From positions 1-64,000 of the forward strand of contig ABVW01000007.1 of assembly GCA_000173115.1 (NCBI GenBank): a stretch of 64,000 nt of DNA, read 5' to 3'. This DNA comes from Flavobacteria bacterium MS024-3C (GTDB taxonomy: Bacteria; Bacteroidota; Bacteroidia; Flavobacteriales; Flavobacteriaceae). Shown piece by piece: positions 21,595 to 48,132 of this stretch. The translations under genes and the position numbers were made by a program. The notes under the pieces were generated by a model, which saw nothing but the letters and a program-made list of their open reading frames with translations, was not told where the DNA came from and did no database searches. Positions within the stretch are counted from its first letter, which is position 1. The number at the start of each line of letters is the position of its first letter.

Positions 21595-21635
21595 TTGAGT
21601 TTGACTTAATTTTTTACGTAAATAATAGTTTCTAA

Positions 21636-23324: not shown

Positions 23325-23345
23325 ATTTAAATAAAAGACAAGATT

Positions 23346-24515: not shown

Positions 24516-24538
24516 AATTAAACACTAAAACAGTCATC

Positions 24539-25999: not shown

Positions 26000-26008
26000 A
26001 AACATCTA

Positions 26009-27354: not shown

Positions 27355-27357
27355 AAA

Positions 27358-32940: not shown

Positions 32941-32958
32941 TGAAACAAGAAATTTATT

Positions 32959-33852
32959 ATGGAAAATGAAATAATAAGAATAATTAATGATTTAAATAAT
33001 TATGGTTTTTCTTCATCAAATGTCAAAGAAATTTTAGATGAGTCTGAAATAAAATATTTTGAAGAAATTTCAGTATCATATTCTCAAGCATTAAAGGAAG
33101 TTAAAATTAAAAGCAGAATAGAAGAAATAAATAAAAACAATACCAATAAAGTTTCAAAGTATAAAATTTATGAAATAACTCATGATGAATTTTTGAATGA
33201 ACCGCTTACATTGGATAACTTGCCTTTATTGAAACTTTATTTATCAAAAAACATTTTAAAAATTGCTAAATCTTATTTGGGTAATGATATTAGAATTAGA
33301 AATCCCTTAGCATGGATTCATCCAGCTACTTCATTGACAAGAGAAATTAGATCTCAAAAATGGCATAGAGATCAAGAAGATTCAAAAATGCTAAAAGTAT
33401 TTATATTATTTTCAAATGTTAATGAAAATAATGGGCCTACTCAATATGTTAAATCAACTAATTCAAGCGGAACATTTAAAAATATAGCTCCAAATATGAC
33501 ATGGCTTGATAGTCATTGGTCTAATCGCAATAAATTCATACGAAGAGCCTACAACTTTTTCAGAGAAAAATTTCCTTATAATTACTCTATTCCAAAAAAA
33601 AATATAGTTAAGGCAACAGGGGATATTGGGTGTATTTTTTTTATAGATACTAATGGTCTTCATAAAGGAGGTTTTGTTAAAGAAGGTTTGAGATTAATGA
33701 CTCACTGCAATTTTCTAAATGCTAAAGCTCCAATGCTTCAAAAAGGAATGCCGCTAGAAAAATTTAATCATGACGAAAAACTATTTTCAATTGATTATGA
33801 ATCACAAGCATTCATGTCATTAGAAGATGAGGCAAAAGCTGTTTTGAAATAA
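32959..33852 (+). CDS. Phytanoyl-CoA dioxygenase (PhyH)-family protein
   Basis: The 297-residue protein shows the Fe(II)/2-oxoglutarate dioxygenase pattern: His136-x-Asp138 in KWHRDQED, a distal His235 in GLHKGG, and Arg245 in GLRLMTH for 2-oxoglutarate. All ligands are present, so it is probably active. PhyH-like proteins in glycan loci oxidise sugars or small substituents; here the substrate is unknown. It begins 18 bases after the upstream transferase and its stop is only 2 bases before the MBOAT remnant. It may alter a sugar of the glycan before or after transfer. Confidence 0.78.
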   Translation: MENEIIRIINDLNNYGFSSSNVKEILDESEIKYFEEISVSYSQALKEVKIKSRIEEINKNNTNKVSKYKIYEITHDEFLNEPLTLDNLPLLKLYLSKNILKIAKSYLGNDIRIRNPLAWIHPATSLTREIRSQKWHRDQEDSKMLKVFILFSNVNENNGPTQYVKSTNSSGTFKNIAPNMTWLDSHWSNRNKFIRRAYNFFREKFPYNYSIPKKNIVKATGDIGCIFFIDTNGLHKGGFVKEGLRLMTHCNFLNAKAPMLQKGMPLEKFNHDEKLFSIDYESQAFMSLEDEAKAVLK

Positions 33853-33853
33853 A

Positions 33854-34312
33854 ATGTTATTTAACTCAATTGAATTTTTCCTTTTCCTGCCATTAGTTTT
33901 TATTTTTTATTGGTTTATCTTCAATAAAAATTTAAAAGCTCAGAATATATTAATTTTAACAAGCTCTTATTTTTTTTATGCTTGGTGGGATTATAGATTT
34001 TTAGGGCTAATATTTTTGTCTACATTAGTTGATTATTTTATTGGAATTAACATTCCAAAGCAATATTTACACAAAATTAAATCAATATTTGATATTCATA
34101 ATATTAACTATTCTATTGTAATACCACCTGTTTATTTAAATGAGTCAACTTCGAAAGAGCAGGTTAAATTAATTAAGAAAATCTTTAATCCAACTAGTGT
34201 TTTAGATTTTTCGGCAAGCCCAAACATATATAATAACAAATATTTTTTTAAAGACTACAGCCATTTTAATGAACAATTTGGAGAAATAATTTTTTCAAAA
34301 ATCGAATTTTAA
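33854..34312 (+). pseudogene. Deletion fusion: MBOAT N-terminus joined to SGNH-like C-terminus
   Basis: This 152-codon ORF starts MLFNSIEFFLFLPLVFIF and up to about residue 71 (VDYFIGINIPK) aligns with the intact MBOAT protein on the minus strand at 41760-43181. From about residue 75 (near 34070) it changes to sequence ending DYSHFNEQFGEIIFSKI, the DxxH C-terminal end of SGNH/DHHW-type proteins. A membrane transferase with one or two transmembrane helices joined to a hydrolase tail makes no functional enzyme. The simplest reading is a deletion that removed the rest of an MBOAT gene and the front of a following SGNH gene. Confidence 0.8.
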
Positions 34313-34358
34313 AGTTTAATCTTTAATTGTGAACAGGAAAAAACCCTAATGAAATCAG

Positions 34359-34916
34359 ATGCTTATTATGAAAATAAAATATTTTGGATTATTAATTAGG
34401 CTATTTCTGTTTAAGATTAAATATGCTAAAAGAGTAAAATTAAATTCTATTAAAGTTGGATTTGAGAAAGGAGTCACCTTTATAATACGAGGAAAAAAGA
34501 GTATAGTAAGTCTCGGTAAAAATATATATTTAATGAGAAATGGCAATCTAGAAGTTTATGATGGGGGTCTTTTAGAAATAGGAAATAATGTTTCAATAAA
34601 TAAAAATTTTTCTATTGTATCAAGAAATAAAATTACTATTGGGAACAATGTTTCAATTGGCCCAAATTGTTGCATTTATGATCATGATCATGACTTTTCC
34701 AATAAAGATTTATTAATTCAAAAACAGGGCTACAATTCAAAGGAAATTTTTATTGGTAATAACGTTTGGATTGCATCAAATGTTTTTATAGGCAAAGGCG
34801 TTAAAATATCAAATGGCGCTATTGTAGCTTCAGGATCCATCGTAGTTAACGATGTAGATGAAAATACTGTGGTTGGAGGGAATCCAGCTAAATTCTTAAA
34901 AAAACGATTTTGTTAA
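34359..34916 (+). CDS. Hexapeptide-repeat acyltransferase (WbbJ/LbetaH type)
   Basis: The 185-residue protein has left-handed beta-helix repeats from residue ~75 to 175: IGNNVSIGPNCCIYDHDHDF, IFIGNNVWIASNVFIGKGVKI, AIVASGSIVV and the ending VVGGNPAKFLKK. The DHDHDF segment supplies the catalytic histidine of this O-acetyltransferase family. It probably O-acetylates a sugar in the cytoplasm. An alternative start at 34368 (MKIKYFG) removes only three residues and is equally possible. It overlaps the next gene by 7 bases. Confidence 0.85.
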   Translation: MLIMKIKYFGLLIRLFLFKIKYAKRVKLNSIKVGFEKGVTFIIRGKKSIVSLGKNIYLMRNGNLEVYDGGLLEIGNNVSINKNFSIVSRNKITIGNNVSIGPNCCIYDHDHDFSNKDLLIQKQGYNSKEIFIGNNVWIASNVFIGKGVKISNGAIVASGSIVVNDVDENTVVGGNPAKFLKKRFC

Positions 34917-35944
34917 AAATTCTTATAGTAACTAGACACTTTAAAGCTAATGAAATTGGTGGGGGAGCACAAAAATCAATTGAATTACTTGTTAGTGAAT
35001 TAAGTAAAATTTACCATGTTGAAGTTTTATGTAAAATTACGAATGAACAAACAGAGTGGATTCATAAATTAGAATTTAAATTTTTAAAAAGAATTAGTTC
35101 TTATGATATAGTTTACTTAAATAGTTTCTTTTCTCCATTATCCATATTTTTTTTGTTTTTAAATAATACAAAAGTGATTTCACCAAAAGGGGAACTTTTC
35201 CCAGGCGCTTTAAAGGCTAAAAATCTAAAGAAGCAGATGTGGATATATTTTTTCAATAAGTTCTTTAAAGGAAAACTAATTTTTCACGCCACATCAACAG
35301 AAGAAAAAAATATAATTGAAAAATATGTATATCCCCAAAGAACAATTATTGCTCCAGATATTGTTGCCATAAATATGGCAGATAATAAGCCTGTAGATAA
35401 TATCATACTTAAAATTGTATATATTTCTAGAATTGATCCTAAAAAAAATTTACTATTTTGTGTTAATATTCTTTCAAAAGTCAAAAGGCAGGTTGTTTTT
35501 AATATATATGGTAATATTGGCGACAAAAAATATTTTGAAAAATGTATTTCTTCTTTAAAAAAATTGCCGCCTAATATAAATTGGAAGTATTATGGTCAGT
35601 TAAACCCATCTCTAGTAAGCAGTACTTTTTTACAAAATGATTTATTTTTTTTTCCAACATTAGGTGAAAATTTTGGCTATATCATTTTAGAAAGTTTATC
35701 AAGTTACTGTCCAGTATTATTATCAAAAGATTTAACTATTTTTGATGATTTAGATAAATTCAAAATCGGATCAAATATTGATCTAGCTAAGCACATGGAT
35801 TGGGTTAAGTTTATAGAGGATTATGATTTAATTAAAAATCAAGAAACCTTAGAAAGATTTAAAAAGTACATTTGCAATAAATTTGATAACAATAAAATTT
35901 TAAAATTAAATCAAAATCTATTTAATGAAGTTCTTAAAAAATAA
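34910..35944 (+). CDS. Glycosyltransferase family 4 protein
   Basis: The 344-residue GT-B protein has a TTG start (MLKILIVTRHFKANEIGGGAQKS...) inside the previous gene. The N-terminal domain carries the glycine-rich GGGAQKSIELL acceptor loop. The C-terminal domain has VYISRIDPKKN near residue 170 and FFPTLGENFGYIILESLSS near 245, the E-x7-E type motif of GT4. It would add one sugar of the repeat unit on the cytoplasmic side. The non-ATG start is chosen since no ATG lies nearby and overlap with both neighbours fits an operon. Confidence 0.85.
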   Translation: MLKILIVTRHFKANEIGGGAQKSIELLVSELSKIYHVEVLCKITNEQTEWIHKLEFKFLKRISSYDIVYLNSFFSPLSIFFLFLNNTKVISPKGELFPGALKAKNLKKQMWIYFFNKFFKGKLIFHATSTEEKNIIEKYVYPQRTIIAPDIVAINMADNKPVDNIILKIVYISRIDPKKNLLFCVNILSKVKRQVVFNIYGNIGDKKYFEKCISSLKKLPPNINWKYYGQLNPSLVSSTFLQNDLFFFPTLGENFGYIILESLSSYCPVLLSKDLTIFDDLDKFKIGSNIDLAKHMDWVKFIEDYDLIKNQETLERFKKYICNKFDNNKILKLNQNLFNEVLKK

Positions 35945-36923
35945 AATTTTACTTATTACCGGAGGGACTGGATCATTTGGCAATGCTGTTTTAGATAAAT
36001 TTTTAAATTCTGATTTAAAGGAGATTAGAATATTTTCTAGAGATGAGAAGAAACAGCATGATATGAGGATAAAGTATAATAATCCAAAAATTAAATTTTT
36101 TATTGGTGACGTAAGATCAAAAGAAAGCATCTCATCTGCAATGATTGATGTTAATTATGTGTTTCACGCTGCTGCCTTAAAACAAGTCCCTTCTTGCGAG
36201 TATTTCCCAATGGAAGCTTTAAAAACCAATGTAATCGGGACAGATAATATTTTGTCTTTAGCGATCGAAAATAAAGTAGAAAAAGTTATCTGTTTAAGCA
36301 CAGATAAAGCTGTTTACCCAATTAATGCAATGGGTGTATCTAAGGCTATGATGGAAAAAGTTTTTGTAGCTAAATCAAGATCATCAGGTGATACTATAAT
36401 TTGTGGAACACGATACGGTAATGTAATGGCCTCAAGGGGTTCAGTAATTCCCCATTTTCATGAGCAAATTAAATCTGGAAAAAATATTACGGTAACTAAT
36501 CCAGATATGACAAGATTTATGATGACACTTGAAGATGCTGTCGAATTAGTGCTTTTTGCTTTTAACAACGGTAACTCTGGAGATATATTTGTTCAAAAAT
36601 CTCCTGCTGCTTCCGTTGGTCTACTTGCTGAAACCATGAAAAAAATATATAATTCAAGTGTTGATATAAAATATATAGGTATTCGACATGCTGAAAAAAT
36701 GCATGAAACTTTATTGTCAAAAGAAGAAAGAATATTAAGTGAAGATCTCGGCAATTATTTTAGAATACCAGCAGACAATAGAGAGTTAAATTATGATAAA
36801 TATTTTTCTGAAGGAATAAGCAACGACACCGCTATTGAGTATAATTCTTCTAATACGAAACAGCTAGAATATAAATCTTTGTCAGATTTACTTAATAAAA
36901 TAGGTTATAATGGTATCAAATGA
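35925..36923 (+). CDS. UDP-GlcNAc 4,6-dehydratase/epimerase of the CapE/WbjB/FnlA type
   Basis: The 332-residue extended SDR has LLITGGTGSFG (residues ~8-18) for NAD(P), CLSTDKAVYPINAMGVSKAMMEK with Met in place of the usual SDR tyrosine, as in CapE, and KQVPSCEYFPMEALKTNVIGT, a segment of the CapE group. PseB differs there (EYNPMECIKTN). It would start from UDP-GlcNAc and make the 4-keto-6-deoxy-L-sugar for UDP-L-FucNAc or UDP-L-QuiNAc. It overlaps the transferase gene before it by 20 bases and the 2-epimerase gene after it by 14 bases, so all three pathway genes are coupled. Confidence 0.88.
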   Translation: MKFLKNKILLITGGTGSFGNAVLDKFLNSDLKEIRIFSRDEKKQHDMRIKYNNPKIKFFIGDVRSKESISSAMIDVNYVFHAAALKQVPSCEYFPMEALKTNVIGTDNILSLAIENKVEKVICLSTDKAVYPINAMGVSKAMMEKVFVAKSRSSGDTIICGTRYGNVMASRGSVIPHFHEQIKSGKNITVTNPDMTRFMMTLEDAVELVLFAFNNGNSGDIFVQKSPAASVGLLAETMKKIYNSSVDIKYIGIRHAEKMHETLLSKEERILSEDLGNYFRIPADNRELNYDKYFSEGISNDTAIEYNSSNTKQLEYKSLSDLLNKIGYNGIK

Positions 36924-38043
36924 TAATAAATTAAAAATTGCTACAATTGTTGGCACAAGGCCAGAATTTATTAGATTATCTGTAATGATTAAAAAATTTG
37001 ATAAATATTTTAATCATTTTTTAATTCATACAGGTCAAAATTATGATTATGAATTAAATCAAATTTTTTTTAATGATTTAGAAATTAGAAAGCCTGACTA
37101 TTTTTTAGATGTACCTGGTAAAAACCTTGGTCATACTTTAGGTAATGTTATTTCTAAAAGTTTTGATTTATTTGATAATTTAAAGCCAGATGCTATTTTG
37201 GTGTTAGGTGACACTAATAGTTCCTTGTCAATTATATCTGCAAAAAGATTGAAAATTCCCATTTTTCACATGGAAGCTGGTAATCGCTGTTTTGATCAAA
37301 ATGTACCTGAAGAAATTAACAGGAAAATTGCTGATCATATTTCGGATATTAATTTGACTTATACTGAGAATAGTAGGCGCTATCTATTAGCAGAAGGTTT
37401 TAGGAAAGATCATGTTTTTTGTGTTGGATCACCATTATTTGAAGTATTAAACTTCTATAAAAATTCAATAGATAAAAGTCAAATTTTAAATAAATTTAAA
37501 CTTTCGCCTAATAAATATTTTTTAGCTAGTATTCACAGAGAGGAAAACCTTGACTTAAATAATAACTTAGAAGACATAATCTCCTCTTTTAACAGTGTTA
37601 TTGAAAAATATAATCTTCCGATTTTATTTAGCACACACCCTAGGACAGCTTTTAAAATTAAAAATTTAAAAACTAAAATAAATCCTAATATAAAGTTAAT
37701 CAAGCCTCTTGGTTTATTTGACTATGTTGCTTTGCAAAAGGATGCCTTAGTAGTTCTGTCAGATAGTGGTTCATTAACAGAGGAATCTTCTATATTAGAT
37801 TTTAAAGCGGTCAGTATAAGAAATTCGACTGAAAGACCTGAGGGCATAGATTTTGGTAACATTGTTTTGGGACAAATTAATAAATCAAATATTATTCAGT
37901 CAATAGAACTAGTTTTAAATTCATACTTTAAAAATATTCCTTCTGAATATAAAATAGATAATAACTCAGATATAATTGCAAGAATTATACAAAGCTATAC
38001 CCCAGTAATTAATAGAGAAATTTGGAATAAAAGTGAAAAGTAA
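36910..38043 (+). CDS. wecB: Non-hydrolysing UDP-HexNAc 2-epimerase (WbjD/FnlC/WbvD type)
   Basis: The 377-residue protein has the WecB-family blocks TIVGTRPEFIRL, HTGQNYDYELNQIFF, and HMEAGNRCFDQNVPEEINRKIADH. The last block (GNRCFDxxVPEEINRK) is characteristic of the FnlC/WbjD subgroup acting on 6-deoxy-L-HexNAc. SDSGSLTEES near residue 285 closes the active site. It would epimerise C2 as the third step of the UDP-L-FucNAc or L-QuiNAc pathway. The wecB symbol is a family name; a WecB role in enterobacterial antigen is not implied. It overlaps the neighbours by 14 and 11 bases. Confidence 0.86.
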   Translation: MVSNDNKLKIATIVGTRPEFIRLSVMIKKFDKYFNHFLIHTGQNYDYELNQIFFNDLEIRKPDYFLDVPGKNLGHTLGNVISKSFDLFDNLKPDAILVLGDTNSSLSIISAKRLKIPIFHMEAGNRCFDQNVPEEINRKIADHISDINLTYTENSRRYLLAEGFRKDHVFCVGSPLFEVLNFYKNSIDKSQILNKFKLSPNKYFLASIHREENLDLNNNLEDIISSFNSVIEKYNLPILFSTHPRTAFKIKNLKTKINPNIKLIKPLGLFDYVALQKDALVVLSDSGSLTEESSILDFKAVSIRNSTERPEGIDFGNIVLGQINKSNIIQSIELVLNSYFKNIPSEYKIDNNSDIIARIIQSYTPVINREIWNKSEK

Positions 38044-38866
38044 AGTATTAGTTTTGGGTGGTTCAGGAATGTTGGGTCATGTTTTATTAAATAAACTTGA
38101 AAAGTCATCCGATTTTTTAGTTAATAATTTAGTTTTTAAAAATAAAGCAAATGAAAAATCAATTGTTTGTGATGTAACTAATATTACAGATTTAGAAAAT
38201 ATACTTTTCAAACTAAAGCCAGATTTTATTATTAATTGTATCGGTTTGTTAAAAGATGCCTCGAATAATGATTTTAGCAAAGCTATTTACTTAAATTCTT
38301 TTTTGCCACAGTGGTTACTTAGTTATTGTAATTCAAATGAAATAAGGTTGATACATGTAAGTACTGACTGTGTTTTTAATGGGAACGATGGAAATTATCA
38401 CGAGGAGTCAAAACCAAATGCAAACGACAATTATGGAAAATCTAAATTATTAGGTGAATATAATAGTCATAATCACCTTTGCATACGGACATCTATAATT
38501 GGTCCTGAGCTAAAAAATAATGGAGTTGGACTTTTTTGTTGGTTTTTAAAACAAAAGGGAGAAGTTAATGGTTTTTCAAAATCAATATGGGGAGGGGTTA
38601 CAACATTAGTATTATCAGAAGCTATAATTACTTCAATTAAAAAAGATTATACTGGACTAGTCCATTTGACAAATGGAAAAACAATATCAAAATTTGATTT
38701 ATTAAGTTTAATAAAAGATAATTTTGACCTTAATAATATTAACCTTTCAAAGGTTCCAGGGAAAAATATTAATAGATCTTTAATCACTAATTTCAACTAT
38801 TTTAGTGTCCCAGATTATGATCAAATGATTAAAGATTTAAAAAAATATTATTTAGAAAACTACTAA
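38033..38866 (+). CDS. RmlD-like SDR reductase for a 6-deoxy-L-HexNAc
   Basis: The 277-residue protein, from a GTG start, has GGSGMLGH near residues 8-15, STDCVFNGNDG near 105, and the YGKSK catalytic pair near 132-136. It is like dTDP-4-dehydrorhamnose reductase and like WbvR. It lacks the C-terminal cupin of CapF/WbjC (about 370 residues), which makes a UDP-L-rhamnosamine to UDP-L-quinovosamine route somewhat more likely than UDP-L-FucNAc. It overlaps the epimerase by 11 bases and ends the cassette. The final product is an inference from length and family. Confidence 0.8.
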   Translation: MKSKVLVLGGSGMLGHVLLNKLEKSSDFLVNNLVFKNKANEKSIVCDVTNITDLENILFKLKPDFIINCIGLLKDASNNDFSKAIYLNSFLPQWLLSYCNSNEIRLIHVSTDCVFNGNDGNYHEESKPNANDNYGKSKLLGEYNSHNHLCIRTSIIGPELKNNGVGLFCWFLKQKGEVNGFSKSIWGGVTTLVLSEAIITSIKKDYTGLVHLTNGKTISKFDLLSLIKDNFDLNNINLSKVPGKNINRSLITNFNYFSVPDYDQMIKDLKKYYLENY

Positions 38867-39035
38867 CATTTATATTATCGATTTTTAAAAAATTTAGTAA
38901 TAAAAGAGTGATCTTAAAATAAAATCTCAAGAAACACATATAGATGAAGTAATTTAAGTTAAGCCTCATTCACTACTTTAGATAAAAAAGGGTGTCCAAT
39001 TAATGTAGCGAATAAAACAAAAGAATTCACTTAAT

Positions 39036-40238
39036 TTGAAAATATTATTAATTAGTCAATATTTCTATCCAGAAAACTTTAAAATAAATGACCTTATTTT
39101 TTCATTAAAAGAGAGAGGTCATCAAATTACTGTTCTCACAGGGAAACCAAACTATTCTAAAACTCATTTTTTTGAAGGTTATGGATGGAAAAGTGATGAT
39201 TTTGAAATTTTAAATGAAATACCGGTTTACAGAGCCAATCTTTTTTCTAGAAGAAATGGTGGAGCGCTTAGACTGTTCATAAACTATTTTTCGTTTGCGA
39301 TATTAGCATCTGTAAAAGTCAGAAAAATAAAAGGTTCTTTTGATGCTATTTTTGTTTATGAGCCATCACCTATTACTGTTGGAATACCAGCTATTTTTGC
39401 AAAGAAAAGATTTAAAGCTCCTATTTATTTTTGGGCTCAAGATCTCTGGCCTGAGAGTTTAGTGGCGGCAGGGGGTGTTAAAAACAAATTTATTTTAGAG
39501 TTTTTTAACTCCTTAACCAAATGGATTTATAATCATTCAATAAAAGTCTTAATCCAGTCCAATGGTTTTAGAGACTATATTTTAGATCAGGGAATTCCAA
39601 ATGATAAAATCCTATTTTATCCAAACCCTACCGAGGATTTCTATAAGCCACTTCAAGAGGTTAAAGAATATCAAGAGTTTTTTGAAAAGGAAAATTTCAA
39701 TATCATTTTTGCCGGAAATATTGGAGAGGCTCAAAGCTTTATAACTATTATTGAGGCTATCAACAACATTAAAGAACTTCCCATTAAAGTTAATGTTCTA
39801 GGAGATGGAAGGTATAAAGAAACTGCAATTGGCCTTATAAAAGATAAAGGATTAGAATCTCATTTTAATTTTCTGGGATCTTTCCCTCCAACTGAAATGC
39901 CTAAATTTTTCTCACATGCAGACGCTCTTTTGGTTTCTCTTAAAAAAGACAAAATCTTCTCTCTCACTATACCCGCTAAAGTTCAATCTTATTTGGCTTG
40001 CGGCAAACCTATAATCGCCTCTATTGACGGAGAGGGTGCCAAAATAGTGAGTGACGCTAAATGCGGAGTAACTTCACCTGCAGAAGATTCAATAGCACTC
40101 AGTAATATAATTAAAGAATTAATGGCTTTGAATAAGTCTACCCTTAATCAAATGGGAAATAATGGAAGGGCTTACTATGAAAAAGAGTTTGACAGAGATT
40201 ATCTTCTAGAAAAGCTAGAAGTTATTTTCAATTCTTAA
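39036..40238 (+). CDS. WbuB-like glycosyltransferase family 4 protein
   Basis: The 400-residue protein starts at a TTG (MKILLISQYFYPENFKINDL...). It has an N-terminal WbuB-type acceptor region, FWAQDLWPESLVAAGG near residue 135, and a C-terminal GT-B half with FAGNIGEAQS and PAKVQSYLACGKPIIA. WbuB proteins transfer L-FucNAc or related 6-deoxy-HexNAc residues, which fits the preceding sugar-nucleotide cassette. A gap of 169 bases without features separates the two. The stop falls in an inverted repeat that may end the operon. Confidence 0.86.
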   Translation: MKILLISQYFYPENFKINDLIFSLKERGHQITVLTGKPNYSKTHFFEGYGWKSDDFEILNEIPVYRANLFSRRNGGALRLFINYFSFAILASVKVRKIKGSFDAIFVYEPSPITVGIPAIFAKKRFKAPIYFWAQDLWPESLVAAGGVKNKFILEFFNSLTKWIYNHSIKVLIQSNGFRDYILDQGIPNDKILFYPNPTEDFYKPLQEVKEYQEFFEKENFNIIFAGNIGEAQSFITIIEAINNIKELPIKVNVLGDGRYKETAIGLIKDKGLESHFNFLGSFPPTEMPKFFSHADALLVSLKKDKIFSLTIPAKVQSYLACGKPIIASIDGEGAKIVSDAKCGVTSPAEDSIALSNIIKELMALNKSTLNQMGNNGRAYYEKEFDRDYLLEKLEVIFNS

Positions 40239-40266
40239 TAAGTACTATATTTACTGGGCTTATTAA
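40235..40266 (+). terminator. Weak inverted repeat at the end of the plus-strand glycan operon
   Basis: An 8-base perfect inverted repeat TTAATAAG / CTTATTAA has a 16-base spacer. It begins inside the stop region of the WbuB-like gene and touches the start of the 279-bp repeat. There is no T-run and the stem is AT-only, so termination is uncertain. Confidence 0.3.
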
Positions 40267-40541
40267 CCAAATGTGTTAAAAACTTTAATGTAATTCATTT
40301 TTCAAAACGGTACACCTTGCTGTAATTTTGTGGTATGCCATTTAATACAGAAACAGCTAAAGCCGCAGGTAAAAGAAGTAAAAGAGGTCCTTCAAAAGTA
40401 TTGGATCCAAACATTAAAGAAAAAGTTGAAATTCTTTATGAAAGTGTTTTTGGATTATTTAATAATACACCAAAAAGATCTTTCAATGTCAGAAAGGGTT
40501 AAGCTTCTTCAAAGTCTTTCAGGTTATATTTTTGCCAAAAC
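40263..40541 (+). repeat. Direct repeat copy 1 (279 bp) carrying the broken small gene
   Basis: It matches 43249-43526 over its whole length with scattered substitutions and one extra T (T-run of five at 40447-40451, four in the other copy). The shared part covers about 70 bases upstream of the small gene, including the TAATTTTG element, and most of its coding sequence. The two copies flank the minus-strand MBOAT/SGNH pair. Confidence 0.9.
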
Positions 40542-40689
40542 TAACATTACTCCCTCTTATGAGTTTATCTTTCATTTATTGAAGAGTAAAGATTATTTCT
40601 ATAATCCTACTTTAACTGAATTATCAAGTAAATCCAAACAATCCCTACCTCCTCGACACAGAAATACTAAAATTCATAAATTTTTTTAA
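40335..40689 (+). pseudogene. Frameshifted copy of the 98-residue small gene
   Basis: From ATG 40335 the reading matches MPFNTETAKAAGKRSKRGPS through YESV as in the intact gene at 43321. An extra T in the run at 40447-40451 then shifts the frame. The matching sequence continues in another frame (LSMSERVKLLQSLSGYI) and ends at 40689 after a diverged tail. A TAATTTTG promoter element (40323-40330) has the same 5-base spacing to ATG as in the intact copy. It is read as a decayed duplicate. Confidence 0.8.
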
Positions 40690-40740
40690 ATTTTTCCTTA
40701 CTTTACAAATACCAATGGAAAGAATCTCACTTTATTTTGT

Positions 40741-41760
40741 TTAATTAATAGAAAAATACTCATCAAGATAAGACTTTTCTTTTTTACTTATCTCAAACTC
40801 ATTTTTGAAATTAGAATTTAAAGGAATCTCTAAACCTTTTAAAATATAGTAATAAACATTTCTGTTGCAGTGAAATCCATCTAGATAAAATGAATCGTCA
40901 TAAAAATCAATATTTGTAAAGTTTTTAAATTTAAATCCATATTTATCAAATAAATCTGTTACGAGTTTAGATGATTCTTCAATATAACTATAATCATATT
41001 TTGGAAGATTCATCATTTTGTTAACGGATGGTGCAAAAGGTGGAAAAAAACCTATCAATATAATTTCATTTTTTTTTGAATAAACTAATAACTCCTCCAA
41101 GATTTCAATCTGTTTTAAATCAACTTTTGAACCATATTCAAATCTTGAATTTCCATTTTGAATGCGATCATAAGTATTAATAAAATTGTAGTCTACAAGT
41201 TCCTCTTTTGGAACAATAAATCTTTTCCCATAAAAATATGACCCGTCATTTCTAAACCCCGAAAAATTATCAATCGATTTTTCTCCAATTAAAAAATAAG
41301 AGTTTATTTTTTTCTTTTTATCCATTAAATTATAAGGAATATTTAACACATTGGTTTTATAAGCATTAACATATCTTGGTAAATAGGATTTATTAAAGTT
41401 CCATTGGTCTAACCCAACAATAATTGTATCACCCTTATTTGTATGTAAGTCATTTGTGAGGTTTTTAATGTCGTTGATAGAATTTACAATCATTGAATAA
41501 TTATACACACTTTTATTTGAAAACATATTCTTTTCAAATCCTGCCGTTCTTGAAGTCCCAATAATTGAAATCTCTTTCTTTTCCTGATTTAATTTAAAAT
41601 CAATGATTGATTGTTGTTGTTTGGGGTTAAATAATACTTTAGATTCTTTTGAATAATTTAATAATTGTGTAATTCCATATTTGTTTAATAGTAATAGCAA
41701 TCCGAAACAAAAAATTACAGATGTCATAAACTTTATAATATATAATAGAAATCTATTCAT
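40741..41760 (-). CDS. SGNH/DHHW-like membrane-anchored partner of the MBOAT protein
   Basis: The 339-residue protein has an N-terminal anchor (residues ~5-27). An SGNH block I is visible as IIGTSRTAGF with Ser70, and the terminal DxxH pair is Asp294/His297 in YLDGFHCN. This is the layout of AlgJ/AlgX/DltD-type proteins that take an acyl group from an MBOAT partner and place it on a polysaccharide. It overlaps the MBOAT gene by one base, so the two form a unit. Catalytic residues are assigned by pattern only. The group transferred is probably acetyl. Confidence 0.78.
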   Translation of the reverse strand: MNRFLLYIIKFMTSVIFCFGLLLLLNKYGITQLLNYSKESKVLFNPKQQQSIIDFKLNQEKKEISIIGTSRTAGFEKNMFSNKSVYNYSMIVNSINDIKNLTNDLHTNKGDTIIVGLDQWNFNKSYLPRYVNAYKTNVLNIPYNLMDKKKKINSYFLIGEKSIDNFSGFRNDGSYFYGKRFIVPKEELVDYNFINTYDRIQNGNSRFEYGSKVDLKQIEILEELLVYSKKNEIILIGFFPPFAPSVNKMMNLPKYDYSYIEESSKLVTDLFDKYGFKFKNFTNIDFYDDSFYLDGFHCNRNVYYYILKGLEIPLNSNFKNEFEISKKEKSYLDEYFSIN

Positions 41761-43181
41761 TAGAATTGGAAGTATATAAAACTAGAAGATTTATTATAAA
41801 AAAACACAACAATTAAAACAAGTAGAACAGAACCTAACAAATCAATTGTATTTGGAATTTTAAAATTCAATCTTTCTTTTCCTTTGATCATAAAGTCTAT
41901 AAGAATTAAACATATTACAAAAAGCATACCCCTTTTAAACCTTAAGTCGAAACTAAATTCAAATAACATCTGTCTTAAATAGTTAAATGCATCAACGATG
42001 GTTTCACTTCTAAAAAACACCCATCCAATTGTCACTAAAAGAAACGTAGTTATAACTTGAATTAATTCTTTAGGAGATGGGAGTAAAGTATTTTGAGCAA
42101 TTATTGAAGTTGTATATTTTCTATTGGTGTTGAATATAAAAGAGGGTAGGAATAGTAAAGCGTGGAATAATCCCCAAAAAATAAATGTCCAATTCGCTCC
42201 ATGCCAAAAACCACTGATAACAAATATTATAAAAACATTTCTAATTGATTTCCATTTTCCTTTTTGTGAACCTCCTAGGGGTATGTATAGATAATCTCTA
42301 AACCAAGTAGATAGAGAGATGTGCCATCTTCTCCAAAACTCACCTATATTTCTTGAGAAGTATGGAAATTTGAAGTTAGACATTAGTTCAAATCCAAAAA
42401 GCTTAGATGTTCCAATTGCTATGTCTGAGTAACCACTAAAATCACAATAGATTTGAAAAGCAAAGTAAATAGCTCCAAGCCATAGAGTTCCTCCTCCAAA
42501 TTCTTGATAATTTCCAAAGATATCATTTACTACAGGTGCTAGTGAATCTGCGATTACTACCTTTTTAAACATTCCCCAGAGGATTAATCTAAGTCCTTGA
42601 ACCCCTTGCTCGTATTTAAAAACTCTTTTCTTAAGAATTTGCGGTAGTAGATTGGAAGCTCTTTCAATGGGTCCTGCAACTAACTGAGGGAAGAATGAAA
42701 CAAAAGAAGCGAATGAAATAAAATCTTTAGTTGCCTTTAACTTTCCCTTATAAATGTCAATGGTATATGACATAGTTTGGAAAGTGTAGAAAGATATTCC
42801 TACAGGTAGAATAATATTCAAGGTCAAGACGCTCTTAATGTCATATCCAACGGAGCTAAATAAATCAATCCAGGAATCAACAAAAAAATTATAATACTTA
42901 AAGAACCCTAATATTCCAAGATTGAATAAGACGGAGCACCATAGAAGAATTCTTTTATTTTTTAAAGATACTTGATTAGAAATACCTAGACCAATAAAAT
43001 AGTCTACAATAGTGGAGAGAATAATTAAAGATAGAAACCTGTAATCCCACCATCCATAGAATACATAGGAGCTAATTAGTATTAAAAGATTTTGATATTT
43101 GAGCTTTTTATCAAATACAAACCAGTATAAAACAAATACTACTGGAAGGAATAATAAAAACTCAATTGAATTAAATAGCAT
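41760..43181 (-). CDS. MBOAT family O-acyltransferase (AlgI/DltB type)
   Basis: The 473-residue polytopic protein has the AlgI-type start MLFNSIEFLLFLPVVFVLYW, then FPQLVAGPIERASNLLPQ, FWRRWHISLSTWFRDYLYIP and GFWHGANWTFIFWGLFHAL, which carries the invariant MBOAT histidines. It would move acyl groups from the cytoplasm across the inner membrane to the SGNH partner that follows. It is on the minus strand, opposite to the surrounding glycan operon, and lies between two 279-bp direct repeats. A partial relative, in plus orientation, survives at 33854. Confidence 0.92.
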   Translation of the reverse strand: MLFNSIEFLLFLPVVFVLYWFVFDKKLKYQNLLILISSYVFYGWWDYRFLSLIILSTIVDYFIGLGISNQVSLKNKRILLWCSVLFNLGILGFFKYYNFFVDSWIDLFSSVGYDIKSVLTLNIILPVGISFYTFQTMSYTIDIYKGKLKATKDFISFASFVSFFPQLVAGPIERASNLLPQILKKRVFKYEQGVQGLRLILWGMFKKVVIADSLAPVVNDIFGNYQEFGGGTLWLGAIYFAFQIYCDFSGYSDIAIGTSKLFGFELMSNFKFPYFSRNIGEFWRRWHISLSTWFRDYLYIPLGGSQKGKWKSIRNVFIIFVISGFWHGANWTFIFWGLFHALLFLPSFIFNTNRKYTTSIIAQNTLLPSPKELIQVITTFLLVTIGWVFFRSETIVDAFNYLRQMLFEFSFDLRFKRGMLFVICLILIDFMIKGKERLNFKIPNTIDLLGSVLLVLIVVFFYNKSSSFIYFQF

Positions 43182-43248
43182 TATGTATTTTAAGTTATAA
43201 TGTAAAGATCATATTTATGGGGATTTAAAAAAAATCAAATTGTAGTTT

Positions 43249-43526
43249 TTAACCAAATGTGTTAAAAACTTTACTGTAATTCATTTTTCAAAACGGTACA
43301 CCTTGTTGTAATTTTGGAGTATGCCATTTAATACAGAAACAGCTAAAGCAGCAGGTAAAAGAAGTAAAAGAGGGCCTTCAAAAGTATTAGACCCAAATAT
43401 TAAAGAAAAAGTTGAAATTCTTTATGAAAGTGTTTTGGATCATTTAATAGTGCACCAACAAGAACTTTCAATGTCAGAAAGGGTAAAACTTCTTCAAAGT
43501 CTTTCAGGTTATATTCTTGCCAAAAC
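43249..43526 (+). repeat. Direct repeat copy 2 (278 bp) carrying the intact small gene
   Basis: It is collinear with 40263-40541, offset 2,986 bp. The copy includes TGTGTTAAAAACTTTACTG at its left end, the TAATTTTG element and codons 1-68 of the 98-residue gene. With copy 1 it brackets the MBOAT/SGNH pair. Confidence 0.9.
43309..43316 (+). promoter_or_regulatory. TAnnTTTG -7 element before the 98-residue gene
   Basis: TAATTTTG is an exact match to the Bacteroidota -7 consensus. Only 4 bases separate it from ATG 43321, so the transcript would be leaderless or nearly so. A clear -33 TTG at the usual spacing was not seen. Confidence 0.5.
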
Positions 43527-43617
43527 AAAACCAATTAGGGATGAATTTACCATTCAGAAGCTTATAGATAGAGAGAGTATCCCTTTTATGGAAAGAGGAC
43601 CATATCCTATAACGTAG
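43321..43617 (+). CDS. Small basic protein of unknown function, repeated in window
   Basis: The 98-residue protein opens with a basic segment (KAAGKRSKRGPSKVL) followed by a helical region (EKVEILYESVLDHLIVHQQE, RVKLLQSLSGYILAK). The pattern recalls small helical proteins of flavobacterial mobile regions or phage terminase-small-like proteins, but no firm family is recognised. A second, frameshifted copy lies at 40335. It converges with the recombinase gene, overlapping its 3' end by 11 bases. The basic N-terminus may bind DNA; this is inference. Confidence 0.65.
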   Translation: MPFNTETAKAAGKRSKRGPSKVLDPNIKEKVEILYESVLDHLIVHQQELSMSERVKLLQSLSGYILAKTKPIRDEFTIQKLIDRESIPFMERGPYPIT

Positions 43618-44596
43618 CTGCTATTTTCATAAAGGCGTCAGCATAAGTATCTTTATTTACTTGGGTACCTATATAACTTAAAAAAGTACTTTCCTTTGAG
43701 TGCCCGGTAATTTGCATGAGTATGGGCGTTTCAATTTTCCCAAAGTAATTCGTTGCAAACGATCTTCTTAAATCGTGAGAAGATATAAGGCTATACTTTG
43801 GGTGAGTACCCAATCTTTTTCTCCTAGTTTTAGAACATAACTTATAACCACTCACCATATTATTAATACCAGCTATCTGGCAAATCTGTTTTATTTGTCT
43901 ATTGAATAATTGAGCAGAAATAGCGTACGGAAAACGTTGTTTTAATATTTGAATAACCTCTTTGTCTACCACCCCAACCGTAACATACTTGTCAGTTTTT
44001 TGCTGGTTAATGTCTATATATACAACATTTTCTATAAATCTGAGTTGTTGTGGTTTAAGATCCAATAGATCAGAAACTCTTTGGCCAATATAGAGTCCAA
44101 TGAGAATCCATTTTTTAGCATTATCTAGTGTGCTAGGTAATTCTTCAAGGGCTTTTATTTTTTGAATTTCTTCAAAAGAAATTGTTTGTAATACCCTGTC
44201 CTTACTTTTTTGAGTAAATGATTCAATATGTCTAGTATAAGGATTTACAGGAATACTCATTCTTTCGGCTTCCTTACAAATCATTTTTAAAAGCTTTAAT
44301 TGAAGGCCCGCATTGTTTAATGAATAGGCCTTTTCTGTTAAAAGCCACTCTTTAAACGTGTGAACTAACATGTGATCTATCTTATTTAACATGATAGTCT
44401 TATTTATTTGCCCTTCAAATTCTTTAATCAAAACATAAAAGCGTTTTAAATTTCGAATCGAATTTTCAGATAGTCCAAGTGAGCCACTTCTTTTAAGTCT
44501 TCTTAAAGGAGCATGCTTTATATAGTTAGAAATCTGGACGCTTAAATGCCCCTGATCCTCTGAAGTAGTGTGTCCGGAAGTGTTCGCTTTGTTCAT
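43607..44596 (-). CDS. Tyrosine recombinase / phage-type integrase
   Basis: The 329-residue protein has an N-terminal SAM-like core-binding domain (residues ~20-115) and a C-terminal catalytic domain. Arg173 (GQRVSDLL), His274 and Arg277 (SSHDLRRSF), His299 (TGHSKES) and Tyr308 (FLSYIG) form the catalytic set, so the enzyme appears intact. Length is in the range of Bacteroidota Tsr and transposon integrases that use a C-terminal Tyr. It sits between the 279-bp repeats plus MBOAT cassette and the sugar-transferase genes. Whether it moves the cassette, inverts DNA or is a relic of an integrated element is not shown. Confidence 0.88.
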   Translation of the reverse strand: MNKANTSGHTTSEDQGHLSVQISNYIKHAPLRRLKRSGSLGLSENSIRNLKRFYVLIKEFEGQINKTIMLNKIDHMLVHTFKEWLLTEKAYSLNNAGLQLKLLKMICKEAERMSIPVNPYTRHIESFTQKSKDRVLQTISFEEIQKIKALEELPSTLDNAKKWILIGLYIGQRVSDLLDLKPQQLRFIENVVYIDINQQKTDKYVTVGVVDKEVIQILKQRFPYAISAQLFNRQIKQICQIAGINNMVSGYKLCSKTRRKRLGTHPKYSLISSHDLRRSFATNYFGKIETPILMQITGHSKESTFLSYIGTQVNKDTYADAFMKIAATL

Positions 44597-44728
44597 TTTT
44601 CACTGTGCAATTTGTGCAATTTTGAGGGTAATGGAGCCTGATTTAATTTAATTAACGAATCAGATAACATTTATAATCAATTATTATAGCTTAATTTCAC
44701 TCAAATATTACATTTAAATATACGTTAT

Positions 44729-44752
44729 TTTTTATGTTATTTAACATAAAAA
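44729..44752. promoter_or_regulatory. AT-rich palindrome between divergent genes
   Basis: TTTTTATGTT and AACATAAAAA form a perfect 10-base inverted repeat with a 4-base ATTT loop. It lies in the 248-base region between the recombinase (minus) and the epimerase (plus), so it is more likely an operator or recombination-related site than a terminator. Nearby, toward the recombinase start, a TTGCACAAATTGCACA direct repeat is also seen on the minus strand (near 44602-44622). Confidence 0.4.
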
Positions 44753-44791
44753 GTCAATAAAATCAAGGGTTACAAGAGATAAAGTTTACAT

Positions 44792-44824
44792 AACTACGGG
44801 CTGTAGTTGAAAGTTTTATCTTTG
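44792..44824 (+). promoter_or_regulatory. Promoter with inverted repeat before the epimerase gene
   Basis: TATCTTTG at 44817-44824 is an exact TAnnTTTG -7 match, 20 bases before ATG 44845. Directly upstream AACTAC-GGGCT-GTAGTT (44792-44808) is a 6-base inverted repeat that overlaps the place where a -33 contact would be, a suitable operator position. Confidence 0.55.
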
Positions 44825-44844
44825 CTTTTTATTCATTCAAAATC

Positions 44845-45702
44845 ATGATTTACATCACCGGCATTACAGGCTTTATAGGCCAAAACTTATCCCACTATCT
44901 GGGAGAGTATGTGGTGGGTGTAAATCTAAGAAAGCAGGAGCCCTTGGTTTTTGAAAAGGGAGCTGCGGTGGTGCACCTAGCAGGGAAGGCGCATGATTTG
45001 AAAAAGACGCTGGCTACTTCAGAATATTTCACCGTGAATACTGAGCTTACTAAAAAAGTTTTTAATGCTTTTTTGGCTTCTGAGGCTGGGGTGTTTGTGT
45101 TTATGAGTACCATTAAGGCTGTGGAAGGGAATGATGTAGAAGCATCGGCTTACAGCCAATCTAAGTACCAGGCGGAGGAGTATATATTGGCTCAAAAGGT
45201 TCCGGCAGGAAAGCGGGTGTATATTTTAAGGCCCGTGATGGTTCATGGTCCTGAGAATAAAGGGAATTTGAATGTATTGTTTGGGGCGGTGAAACGTTTG
45301 GGTGTTTGGCCTTTGGCGGTTTTTGAAAACCAGCGGTCTTTTGTGTCTGTGGAGAATCTTTGTTTTGTCATTAAAGAACTCATAACTAATGAAAATGTAG
45401 CTTCTGGGGTGTATGCGGTGGGAGATGAAGCGGCTTTGAGCACCAATGAACTAGTTGCCTTGGCGGGCGAGGCTATAGGGAAGAAAGTGGCTTTTTGGAA
45501 AGTGCCTAAGGGGCTGGTAATTCTATTGGCTAAGTTAGGAGATGTATTGCCGCTGCCATTGAACAGCGAGCGATTGGAGAAGCTTACAGAAAATGCGGTG
45601 GTAGACGCTAGTCCTTTGTTAAAGGCCTTGGGCATAAAGTCTTTGCCTTTGCGTACCTTAGACGGCTTTAAGAAAACCTTTGATTCTTTTGTAGATGAAT
45701 AG
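44845..45702 (+). CDS. NAD-dependent epimerase/dehydratase (SDR) paired with the initiating transferase
   Basis: The 285-residue extended SDR has the nucleotide loop TGITGFIG (residues ~4-11), a catalytic Y-S-Q-S-K set within AYSQSKYQAEEY, and RPVMVHGPENKGNL. It is a short relative of the WbpV/WbpP-type and GalE-like reductases or epimerases that act on 4-keto UDP-HexNAc. It overlaps the initiating sugar transferase by 8 bases and precedes the WbpM/CapD-like dehydratase. The likely job is to finish UDP-FucNAc/QuiNAc-like precursor formation after the dehydratase (WbpM-WbpV type). GC content rises sharply here compared with the upstream locus. Confidence 0.82.
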   Translation: MIYITGITGFIGQNLSHYLGEYVVGVNLRKQEPLVFEKGAAVVHLAGKAHDLKKTLATSEYFTVNTELTKKVFNAFLASEAGVFVFMSTIKAVEGNDVEASAYSQSKYQAEEYILAQKVPAGKRVYILRPVMVHGPENKGNLNVLFGAVKRLGVWPLAVFENQRSFVSVENLCFVIKELITNENVASGVYAVGDEAALSTNELVALAGEAIGKKVAFWKVPKGLVILLAKLGDVLPLPLNSERLEKLTENAVVDASPLLKALGIKSLPLRTLDGFKKTFDSFVDE

Positions 45703-46243
45703 AGTACTAGCCTTGTTGTTATTGGTTTTGTTGTCTCCGCTCTTTGTAGTGGTGGGGCTGGCCATTTATTTAGAAGATGGGGCGCCGGTGTTTTTTGTGC
45801 AAAAAAGGGTGGGTAAAGACTATAGCTTTTTTAGCTTGTACAAGTTTAGGACCATGAAAAAAAACACCCCCAATGTGGCCACCCATTTATTAGACAACCC
45901 AAAGCAGTATTTATTAGGCTTGGGAGGCTTGCTCCGTAAATTGTCCCTAGATGAATTACCCAATTTAATCAATATAGTGCGGGGAGAGATGGTTTTTGTG
46001 GGGCCTAGGCCTGCTTTGCACAACCAGGAAGACCTTATGGCGCTCAGGCTAGCGGCAGGGGTAGAGAAACAGATGCCTGGGATTACCGGATGGGCACAGA
46101 TTAATGGAAGGGACAGTATTTCCCTAGAAGAAAAGGTGGCGCTGGAAAAACATTATTTGGACAACCAATCGCTGGCCTTGAACCTAAAAATACTGTGGCG
46201 GACCCTCTTTAAAGTAGCGGGAGATAAGACTGTGTCTCATTAA
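45695..46243 (+). CDS. Undecaprenyl-phosphate sugar-1-phosphate transferase (PglC/WcaJ core)
   Basis: The 182-residue protein has one hydrophobic N-terminal re-entrant helix (residues ~3-24), then KRVGKDYSFFSLYKFRTM, LRKLSLDELPNLINIVRGEM, FVGPRPAL and PGITGWAQINGRD. This is the minimal monotopic phosphoglycosyltransferase core, as in PglC, which places the first sugar phosphate on undecaprenyl phosphate. It is the committed initiating enzyme for the glycan in this locus. It overlaps the epimerase by 8 bases, with 56 bases before the dehydratase gene. Confidence 0.92.
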   Translation: MNRVLALLLLVLLSPLFVVVGLAIYLEDGAPVFFVQKRVGKDYSFFSLYKFRTMKKNTPNVATHLLDNPKQYLLGLGGLLRKLSLDELPNLINIVRGEMVFVGPRPALHNQEDLMALRLAAGVEKQMPGITGWAQINGRDSISLEEKVALEKHYLDNQSLALNLKILWRTLFKVAGDKTVSH

Positions 46244-46299
46244 ATAAAATTCCAACAGAAATAGTATCTTAGCAGTCAATTAGAAACAACCTACTGCCC

Positions 46300-48132
46300 A
46301 TGCTACTGGCCAAAATATTCAAGAACCATTACAACAAAACCTATGCCTACATCCTAGATGTATTGGGGCTGGCTTTTGCTATAAAGGTATTGTTGCAGCT
46401 CAATGGGGCCACCGTGATTATAAACCAATACCAGGATTTGGCGGTGTATGGGGTCTTGGCCATTTTGGGCATCCGCCTTATGGGCGGGTACAGCATGATG
46501 CTGCGCTTTACCTCATTATTAGACGTGTCTAGAATTGCAGCAGGGCTGTTTATAGCCACTGTTTTATTTGGGTTTTATACCGGGGCTACCACCCGATTGG
46601 AGTTTAGGTATTTGGTGCTGTTATTTTACTTCTCCATTACCGTATTGGTGGCGTATAGGGTGGGAGTGCGCCTCTTGTACCACCGATCTATTGCAGTGAC
46701 CGAGAAAACCCCCACTTTGTTGTTTGGGGCAGGTACCAATGGTTTAAATGCCCAAAGGGCGCTCATGAATTCCAGTAGCATTCAAGTGCTTGGTTTTGTA
46801 GACGACGACCCAGCTAAAATAGGCCGTTCCATAGAAGGATTGCCCGTATATGGGATGAAAGGCCTGGCCGCAGTAGTGGCCAAAAAAGTGGTGGCCCAAG
46901 TGGTGCTTACCTCAGAGAAGCTGTCCGTAGGGCGTAAAAAAGAACTCTTTGATTTTCTAAGTGCCTTAGGGGTAAAAGTATTTACTGTGCCCTCAGTGGA
47001 CCAGTGGGTTCAGGGTGGGGCCCAGGGAAATGCCCTGAAATCTATAAAAATAGAAGACCTGCTCAAAAGAGACGCCATTGCCATAGATTTGGCCAGAAAT
47101 AAGGCTGTATATGCCGGGAAACGCATCCTAGTGACCGGAGCGGCAGGCTCCATAGGCGCAGAGATTGTAACACAGCTCCTGCCCTTTGGCCCCGCAGAAC
47201 TGCTATTATTAGATGCAGCAGAAACCCCTTTATTTCATCTAAAGAACCAATTGGGGGCCCAATACCCAGGAAAGGTCTCTTACCATGTGGCCTCCGTATT
47301 AGACCACCAATACCTTGAGCGTCTTTTTCAGGACCCAGCAGGCATAGATGTGGTGTTTCACGCTGCTGCCTACAAGCACGTGTTTATGATGGAACAGCAG
47401 CCCCAGGCCGCTATTTTGAATAATATTTTAGGGACCAAGCAGCTCATAGATTTAAGTATACAACACCAGGTGGCCCAATTGGTCTTGGTCTCTACAGACA
47501 AGGCCGTGAATCCTTCTAATGTGATGGGGGCTTCTAAACGCATTGCAGAATTGTATTTGGCGGCTTGTATGGAAAAGGCAGGCCAAACCAAGCTCATTAC
47601 CACCCGTTTTGGGAATGTGCTTGGGTCCAACGGTTCAGTAGTGCCTATCTTTAGCGCCCAAATAGCGGCAGGAGGGCCTGTGACCGTCACCCATCCAGAA
47701 ATTACCCGTTATTTTATGACCATTCCAGAAGCCTGTCAATTGGTCTTAGAAGCAGGTGCCATTGGCGGCGGCGGAGAGGTTTTTGTCTTTGACATGGGGG
47801 ACCCAGTGAAAATTAAAGACCTGGCGGTAAATATGATCCGCCTCTCTGGATTGGTAGAAGACCAGGACATAAAAATTGAATATAGCGGCCTTAGGCCAGG
47901 AGAGAAGCTCTATGAGGAATTGCTCACAGACAAAGAAGATTTACTACCTTCTCACAATCCCCTGATTTTTAAAGCCAAGAAAGAAACCCTAGCTGCCACA
48001 TTAGCCAGTGGTATTGCCGTTTTATTAGAGATGGCCGCTCAAGGCGCCACAGCAGAAGTATTGGTAAAACAAATGAAAAAATTGGTGCCAGAGTTTAAAA
48101 GTATGCACTCTCCTTTTGAAAAATTAGATTAA
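46300..48132 (+). CDS. Membrane UDP-HexNAc 4,6-dehydratase (WbpM/CapD/PglF type)
   Basis: The 610-residue protein has four or five transmembrane segments in residues ~14-130, a Rossmann-like CoA-binding segment (LLFGAGTNGLNAQRAL near 141), and a C-terminal extended SDR with VTGAAGSIGAE near residues 276-286. STDKAVNPSNVMGASKR (about 397) is the diagnostic WbpM/CapD block, with Met replacing the usual Tyr. The full-length fusion is typical (about 600-650). It makes the UDP-4-keto-6-deoxy-HexNAc precursor. With the upstream epimerase and transferase it forms a conserved end of the glycan locus. A TATCTTAG near 46265 may be its weak promoter. Confidence 0.92.
   Translation: MLLAKIFKNHYNKTYAYILDVLGLAFAIKVLLQLNGATVIINQYQDLAVYGVLAILGIRLMGGYSMMLRFTSLLDVSRIAAGLFIATVLFGFYTGATTRLEFRYLVLLFYFSITVLVAYRVGVRLLYHRSIAVTEKTPTLLFGAGTNGLNAQRALMNSSSIQVLGFVDDDPAKIGRSIEGLPVYGMKGLAAVVAKKVVAQVVLTSEKLSVGRKKELFDFLSALGVKVFTVPSVDQWVQGGAQGNALKSIKIEDLLKRDAIAIDLARNKAVYAGKRILVTGAAGSIGAEIVTQLLPFGPAELLLLDAAETPLFHLKNQLGAQYPGKVSYHVASVLDHQYLERLFQDPAGIDVVFHAAAYKHVFMMEQQPQAAILNNILGTKQLIDLSIQHQVAQLVLVSTDKAVNPSNVMGASKRIAELYLAACMEKAGQTKLITTRFGNVLGSNGSVVPIFSAQIAAGGPVTVTHPEITRYFMTIPEACQLVLEAGAIGGGGEVFVFDMGDPVKIKDLAVNMIRLSGLVEDQDIKIEYSGLRPGEKLYEELLTDKEDLLPSHNPLIFKAKKETLAATLASGIAVLLEMAAQGATAEVLVKQMKKLVPEFKSMHSPFEKLD

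Follow-up and report, generated by a model that had tools for sequence, protein, structure and literature searches.

O-antigen clusters are exchanged horizontally by homologous recombination in their flanking genes. In Bacteroides fragilis, the Tsr/FinA systems invert promoters between inverted repeats, Tsr19 being a tyrosine recombinase (PMC3090145). Furthermore, the elements named GInts combine an operon of three recombinases with a small partner protein (GinD), variable cargo, and att repeats at both ends (PMC5385486). Here, we analyzed a stretch of 64,000 nucleotides (the window; contig ABVW01000007.1, positions 1 to 64,000) from Flavobacteria bacterium MS024-3C, in which two long direct repeats enclose an MBOAT O-acyltransferase gene and its partner gene, with a tyrosine recombinase gene just beyond. 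The explanation we favor, and consider rather probable, is that a small portable recombination module occurs here twice and that each repeat represents the left end of one copy. In its complete form, the module spans about 1.5 kb (approximately 43246-44807) and comprises a small gene, a convergent recombinase gene, a region of about 175-200 bp, and a near-palindrome. The genome is that of a single cell, represented by one assembly based on multiple displacement amplification (MDA; 1,515,248 bases, 21 contigs, 64% complete).

The module shares traits with several described systems. As in O-antigen cluster exchange, a variable sugar-gene cluster lies between conserved flanks, but here the flank is a portable recombinase module found at different chromosomal places. 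Integrons likewise combine a tyrosine recombinase with a conserved site a short distance upstream of the recombinase gene, past which the genes vary. Unlike them, the module has no cassette array, no second copy of the site in the seven genomes with an exact copy, and ordinary sugar or housekeeping genes as neighbors, while the best integron-related NCBIfam model (NF040815) reached 38.5 bits against a cut-off of 220. An integron was rejected, as neither an IntI-type integrase nor a repeated site was found in the loci (attC structure models were not run). Like the Tsr/FinA promoters, the module places a site-specific recombinase beside polysaccharide genes in Bacteroidota (PMC3090145). Its long repeats, in contrast, have the same orientation, and a promoter enclosed by a strong long inverted pair was not found (best long pair 71% complementary). 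A Tsr-like promoter inversion was likewise discarded: in 36000-48000 the long repeats are direct, and the best inverted pairs reach 71-87% over 23-42 nt. Integrase modules of phages, integrative and conjugative elements (ICEs), and genomic islands also carry a recombinase at one end of their cargo and have a sharp junction. In contrast to GInts, the module has one recombinase, one palindrome, and no matching left-end repeat that we could find (PMC5385486). A simple phage or ICE attachment was not adopted. The palindrome occurs once per genome, and the left end of a larger unit may lie beyond the stretches read. A search of open-licence PMC papers returned no description of the module.

The module and its right junction

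By scanning genome contigs with an alignment of the small protein, we gathered 27 loci beyond the window (numbered with the prefix L). Both the small gene and the recombinase are visible in 25 of them, and the contigs of L069 and L080 end too early. With the window added, 26 loci show both genes; in 17 of these (16 of them further loci) the genes are arranged directly tail-to-tail, and in nine they are separated by an insert. The idea of the earlier note on this DNA presupposed a tie between the small gene and mobility, and the pair indeed behaves as a portable unit. Carriers are mostly marine Flavobacteriales, among them the cultured Polaribacter filamentus ATCC 700397 (L074) and LSUCC0859 (L058), and the module usually stands beside polysaccharide genes. 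The nearest open reading frame (ORF) to the left belongs to a sugar-related Pfam family in 18 of the 22 loci tested, that of L083 scoring below the model cut-off. Among the other four, the ORFs of L067 and L084 match no family, that of L069 is histidine kinase-like, and that of L081 belongs to glycoside hydrolase 81. Loci fetched twice were counted once (L043/L058, L046/L061, L048/L064, L049/L065, L024/L077, L096/L070, L097/L060). Some carriers have implausible labels as metagenome-assembled genomes (MAGs), namely Balneolaceae for L062, Pelagibacter for L066, and Alphaproteobacteria for L078, and may be misbinned contigs.

In the window, the 3′ ends of the convergent small gene and recombinase overlap by 11 bp. 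The tyrosine recombinase which the earlier note had placed just beyond the repeats is supported by Pfam, and contains motif stretches with the residues R, K, HxxR, H, and Y, which we assume to have the catalytic roles. Both genes are under purifying selection: the small gene has ratios of non-synonymous to synonymous substitution rates (dN/dS) of 0.07-0.19, and the recombinase has ratios of 0.05-0.10 (seven pairs each, dS above 1 in several). Relatives of the recombinase were not found in viral contigs and no plasmid matched at 1e-20; the nearest phage recombinases found, from Cellulophaga phages, are 29-31% identical. The small protein had no PHROG match at an E-value of 1, no fold or sequence match in the PDB, and no relatives in phage records or viral contigs. 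Its AlphaFold model (pLDDT 72.9, pTM 0.39) gave no useful fold match.

The right end of the module is marked by the near-palindrome ACTACGGRCTGTAGT, about 175-200 bp beyond the recombinase start. It is exact in 17 of the 23 loci reaching that point, carries one mismatch in three, and is absent in L077, L081, and L082. The distance from the recombinase start is 172-177 bp in 14 Polaribacter-like loci and 134-226 bp in six window-like ones. Exact copies were found once each in seven of nine genomes searched, and in six of 395 genomes of the order. The latter six all stand in module context: three belong to known modules, and the other three are on contigs that start inside the module end.

Similarity between loci ends sharply at this point. 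Mean identity reaches 1.00 at the final palindrome base and the one after it, and then falls to 0.40 and 0.30 (chance 0.33; later positions 0.20-0.60). This profile is based on 83 pairs from 14 of the 20 palindrome loci. The six window-like loci were left out because the sequence left of their palindrome aligns poorly, as were eight pairs with visibly related right flanks, whereas L075/L084 and L072/L075 were kept, although their similarity extends 93 and 57 bp on. Among 11 pairwise block ends, four fall 1-2 bp past the palindrome. This conserved junction lies outside the interval considered in the earlier note.

The module is found at different places with different neighbors across the loci. 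Between L070 and L083, the module is 97.2% identical, as against 87.4% in the umuDC stretch next to it; in L083, rml genes separate the palindrome from umuD, and L070 has none there. Between L071 and L073, the right flank is 92.8% identical and the stretch from recombinase to palindrome 83.9%, so identity shifts at the junction in the opposite direction too. The comparison of loci shows a discrete and selected unit, with variable neighbors on both sides, a sharp right junction, and a usual position at the edge of a polysaccharide cluster. From the position, conservation, and junctions we infer that the palindrome would be the site of action of the recombinase, the small protein being a putative DNA-binding helper. 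The coordinates of all features are listed in Table 1.

Table 1. Features of the module, its duplicated left end and the surrounding genes in the window
Feature	Position	Strand	Details or basis
Variable polysaccharide (O-antigen/capsule-like) cluster left of the module	21600-40240	+	ORFs, similarity, Pfam for 38033-38866 and 39036-40238; G+C 27.4%
Glycosyltransferase adjoining repeat copy 1	39036-40238	+	Pfam Glycos_transf_1 6.9e-18; in L059, this gene is next to the only small gene
Repeat copy 1	40260-40544	+	Out of frame past about 39 codons, with one extra T; truncation near codon 70
Spacer, 196 bp	40545-40740		Between copy 1 and MBOAT partner gene
MBOAT partner gene, SGNH-like by motif only	40741-41760	-	GTSR (residue 68), DGFH (294)
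MBOAT O-acyltransferase	41760-43181	-	Pfam MBOAT 2.1e-27
Left edge of copy 2: perfect inverted repeat (9-7-9), GTTTTTAAC-CAAATGT-GTTAAAAAC	43245-43269		Left arm in copy 1 has 2 mismatches
Repeat copy 2	43246-43529	+	Pairwise alignment with copy 1
Complete small gene	43321-43617	+	98 aa; basic N-terminus, helices
Tyrosine recombinase, 329 aa	43607-44596	-	Catalytic and core-binding (SAM-like) domains, Pfam Phage_integrase (6e-11) and Pfam Phage_int_SAM_5 (1.9e-7), each above its cut-off
Conserved region, recombinase start to palindrome	44597-44792		Comparison of loci
Near-palindrome ACTACGGGCTGTAGT, right end of module	44793-44807	+	Locus comparison
NAD-dependent epimerase, first gene right of module	44845-45702	+	Pfam Epimerase 1.1e-14; G+C about 47% from here on

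Some further observations concern the parts of the module. Upstream of the recombinase, WTAAC words are enriched in the seven Polaribacter-like loci tested (shuffle fraction at most 0.005) and more weakly in three window-like loci (0.04, 0.13, and 0.34). The word AGTTTCGACTAC occurs twice upstream of the recombinase in L061, with the conserved region between the copies, and once in L062, which has no intervening stretch. Three further related recombinases (42-48% identical) lie at about 165.5-174.3 kb in L045 (G011:C8, 164001-180000), among large repetitive surface-protein genes; no inverted repeats of at least 25 nt were found around them. About 60-185 bp right of the palindrome, L071, L073, L075, L076, and L084 share a conserved intergenic block with AACGGCCATGAG before different genes, without an Rfam match in L075, L076, or L084. 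In viral contigs, the palindrome occurred in 23 stretches, none of them matching module genes, and these were taken as chance. A distant relative of the small protein (E 1.2e-10) lies in L102 at 4817-5092, directly before a terminase large-subunit gene (3549-4829; Terminase_6N 3.7e-7), a neighborhood which may hint at an origin of the small protein in phage packaging.

The duplicated left end and its explanations

The earlier note had described direct repeats of 279 bp in the same orientation, each with a promoter and a small gene, and their limits and length proved right within a few bases. The copies are 93.3% identical over 282 columns, with one 1-nt indel. Each consists of a leader, a TAnnTTTG box, which we take to be the Bacteroidetes -7 promoter consensus, and the small gene over the first two thirds of its length. 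The box stands 4 nt 5′ of the ATG in both copies and in four of five near relatives (L058, L059, L060, and L062; not L061). The repeat is not a recombination site as such, but promoter plus partial gene. A 23-bp pattern from its left edge (up to three mismatches) occurs within the window solely at the two repeats (mean in shuffles 0.00), and the genome's own assembly contains no third copy, the next best match being 19 bp. One exact 19-bp match to the leader (TGTGTTAAAAACTTTACTG minus its first bases) lies at 63460-63478, upstream of a ribonucleotide reductase-like gene.

The frameshift seen by the earlier note in copy 1, and its view of copy 2 as the functional one, are both in line with our analysis, copy 2 being complete. 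The copies differ by 14 coding substitutions, ten at third and none at second positions. All five before the indel are synonymous, and five of the nine after it are non-synonymous. Since substitutions are mostly at third positions and the non-synonymous changes all follow the indel, the pattern fits copies that diverged mostly as working genes, with a later loss of function in copy 1.

The earlier note had expected an empty site with a single small gene in a relative, and such an arrangement is found in L059, a MAG contig labelled MS024-2A. L059 is colinear on both sides, window 39056-40544 corresponding to 7578-9065 at 82% and window 43255-44807 to 8792-10334 at 79%. The order there is the same glycosyltransferase, one small gene, with a shifted C-terminus, and the same recombinase. 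L059 is the empty site, though in another species, and does not itself demonstrate excision.

We propose that the recombinase, helped by the small protein, would join or exchange incoming sugar-gene blocks and the chromosome at the palindrome. The ancestor may have resembled L059, with glycosyltransferase, one module, and chromosome. A second block, MBOAT and partner with a module of its own, would have been added beside the older module. Copy 1 would be the fossil small gene that remained after most of the older module disappeared, and copy 2 would belong to the live module. The arrival of the MBOAT block with a second module beside an older one is the most likely course, and O-acylation would then have been gained with the block; the alternative is recombination between modules with one illegitimate end. 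Either the recombinase or homologous/illegitimate recombination between modules may have made the duplication. Of the earlier idea that the cassette is gained or lost as a unit, one part stands, namely that the block arrived or left whole beside a recombination module; its excision across the repeats as a switch is not supported.

Several observations weigh against the repeats being left ends of two modules that were joined at the palindrome. Two small-gene copies occur in the window only (1 of 28 loci), in a single MDA-based assembly with a probable chimera at the contig end, and neither an excised form, a circle, nor a within-strain variant was seen. Sites shared with copy 1 versus copy 2 (4:11 in L059, 8:8 in L058, 5:12 in L060, 8:7 in L061) do not settle which copy is resident. 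The left edge of the module is inexact, BLAST placing it 0-75 bp and local alignment 43-90 bp ahead of the ATG, and a second palindrome marking it was found neither in the module loci nor in the genomes searched. In 15.0-46.5 kb, a left end is not marked by any shared 13-mer from the module edges, and the left end of a larger unit may lie outside. Taken by itself, the palindrome 15-mer is no rarer than a control: reversed, the pattern occurs in 5 of 395 genomes. The remaining block ends fall 6-11 bp (two) or 57-93 bp (two) past the palindrome, far beyond it (one, L064/L065, a shared flank), or before it (two, L061/L062 and L064/L077). The recombinase is frameshifted in L065, L071, L072, L073, L079, and L084, and L064, L065, L070, L072, and L074 have no jump in G+C.

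The strongest competing explanation, which we regard as a serious though not the leading candidate, is that homologous and illegitimate recombination alone swap the left clusters through module homology, that one illegitimate end left copy 1 broken, and that the recombinase is a passenger or acts elsewhere. The inexact left edge favors homologous recombination, and so does the mosaic of leader and gene body: L064 and L065 have almost the same small gene and yet different leaders, that of L065 matching the leader of L083 (45 nt at 97.8%). In several loci a cytidylyltransferase-like gene or its 3′ end is retained left of the module, and the divergence of copies 1 and 2 largely as functional genes is what two alleles would show. 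What speaks for the proposed joining at the palindrome instead is the sharp right junction at a conserved near-palindrome, beside a recombinase gene under purifying selection.

A site-specific capture at the left edge appears unlikely. Here, the 9-7-9 inverted repeat at which the repeats start would be the crossover site, and a circle with copy 1, the SGNH-like gene, and MBOAT would have been inserted and could be excised again. The 7-bp spacer is identical in both copies, a perfect 9-7-9 repeat arises in 0.22% of random 49-bp stretches of like composition, and L059 has the arrangement expected to remain after excision. The inverted repeat is a possible candidate for an operator or a crossover site. 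Yet its left arm is poorly kept in L059, L060, L061, and L062, where the spacer differs, no such repeat was seen by eye in Polaribacter-like loci, and nine other window matches of 9-bp repeats with 6-8 bp spacers were listed, some of them nested. Moreover, the left edge of the repeat similarity is the general left edge of the module, and therefore no crossover is needed. The idea of a decayed palindrome in the copy 1 flank, examined by eye, was dropped because the homologous place in L059 has none.

An assembly or MDA artefact that joined the block from elsewhere in the same cell is very improbable, as the repeat copies differ by 7%, mostly synonymously, a divergence for which a chimera does not account, and the 64%-complete assembly contains no other sequence from which copy 1 could derive, although this incompleteness makes a missing source conceivable. 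According to the original report, MDA product contained one chimera per 13-27 kb, but chimeric reads were removed (PMC2668756). The window contig (G000:C15) closes with a 727-bp inverted copy (67517-68243; L105; 99.9%) of 41213-41939, part of the MBOAT and partner genes, which is probably an MDA chimera.

The O-acylation block and varying cargo

The minus-strand pair between the repeats had been named MBOAT/SGNH in the earlier note. The MBOAT half is supported by Pfam; against the NCBIfam DltB model the protein reached 3e-46, below the cut-off (158 of 375 bits). The SGNH half is based on two motifs, GTSR and DGFH, which we take as grounds for the name; the partner protein had no match in Pfam, NCBIfam, or PDB sequences. 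The spacer between copy 1 and the partner gene holds no clear remnant of a recombinase or small-gene 3′ end (best module match 28 nt, E 0.011), and 30 nt of it match L076 at 90% (E 9e-5). Within the main polysaccharide cluster, a 152-aa ORF (33854-34312) represents a broken MBOAT gene, its N-terminal 78 residues matching the start of the cassette MBOAT at 69% identity. In the window, G+C is 27.4% in cluster and insert, 31.7% in the module, and 47.5% on the right side, and similar steps are present in L058, L062, and L067. No Rfam match was found in 40000-45200 at E 0.1.

Other cargo flanked by these repeats, as the earlier note had envisaged, was not found, because the window alone has two small-gene copies. 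Cargo does vary elsewhere in the module, namely between the small gene and the recombinase. In ten loci a nucleotidyltransferase-like gene, resembling the NTP_transf_5 protein of L074, directly follows the small gene; the likeness was judged by eye except in L074 (Pfam 6.3e-37). In several of these loci, ACCAAATAAC from the recombinase end recurs at the small-gene end. The insert of L072 also holds an MBOAT gene, in two frames 68.6% and 59.0% identical to that of the window, and tblastn found no match to the window partner protein in L072. A repeated independent gain or loss of the nucleotidyltransferase insert (five changes on the small-gene tree, four on the recombinase tree) was not upheld, because an origin in one clade was not rejected (approximately unbiased test, p-AU 0.109). 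In L024 (G081), a WecG-type gene (1882-2598) stands beside the small gene and is followed by a truncated ORF with a similar start (2961-3152), apparently another partial duplication beside a module.

Implications for surface glycans

Tentatively, and with less than even confidence, we suggest that helper, recombinase, and attachment palindrome form a platform dedicated to surface-polysaccharide loci, which would be spreading in marine Flavobacteriales and site-specifically linking sugar or decoration blocks to the chromosome. As the module is portable, has an exact conserved junction, and is present in cultured carriers, a site-specific mechanism is directly testable. If such a platform exists, surface glycans would turn over by integration, and not by homologous exchange only. 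This may matter for abundant marine Flavobacteria, in which the fast exchange of surface-sugar clusters is poorly explained and bears on phage resistance and grazing.

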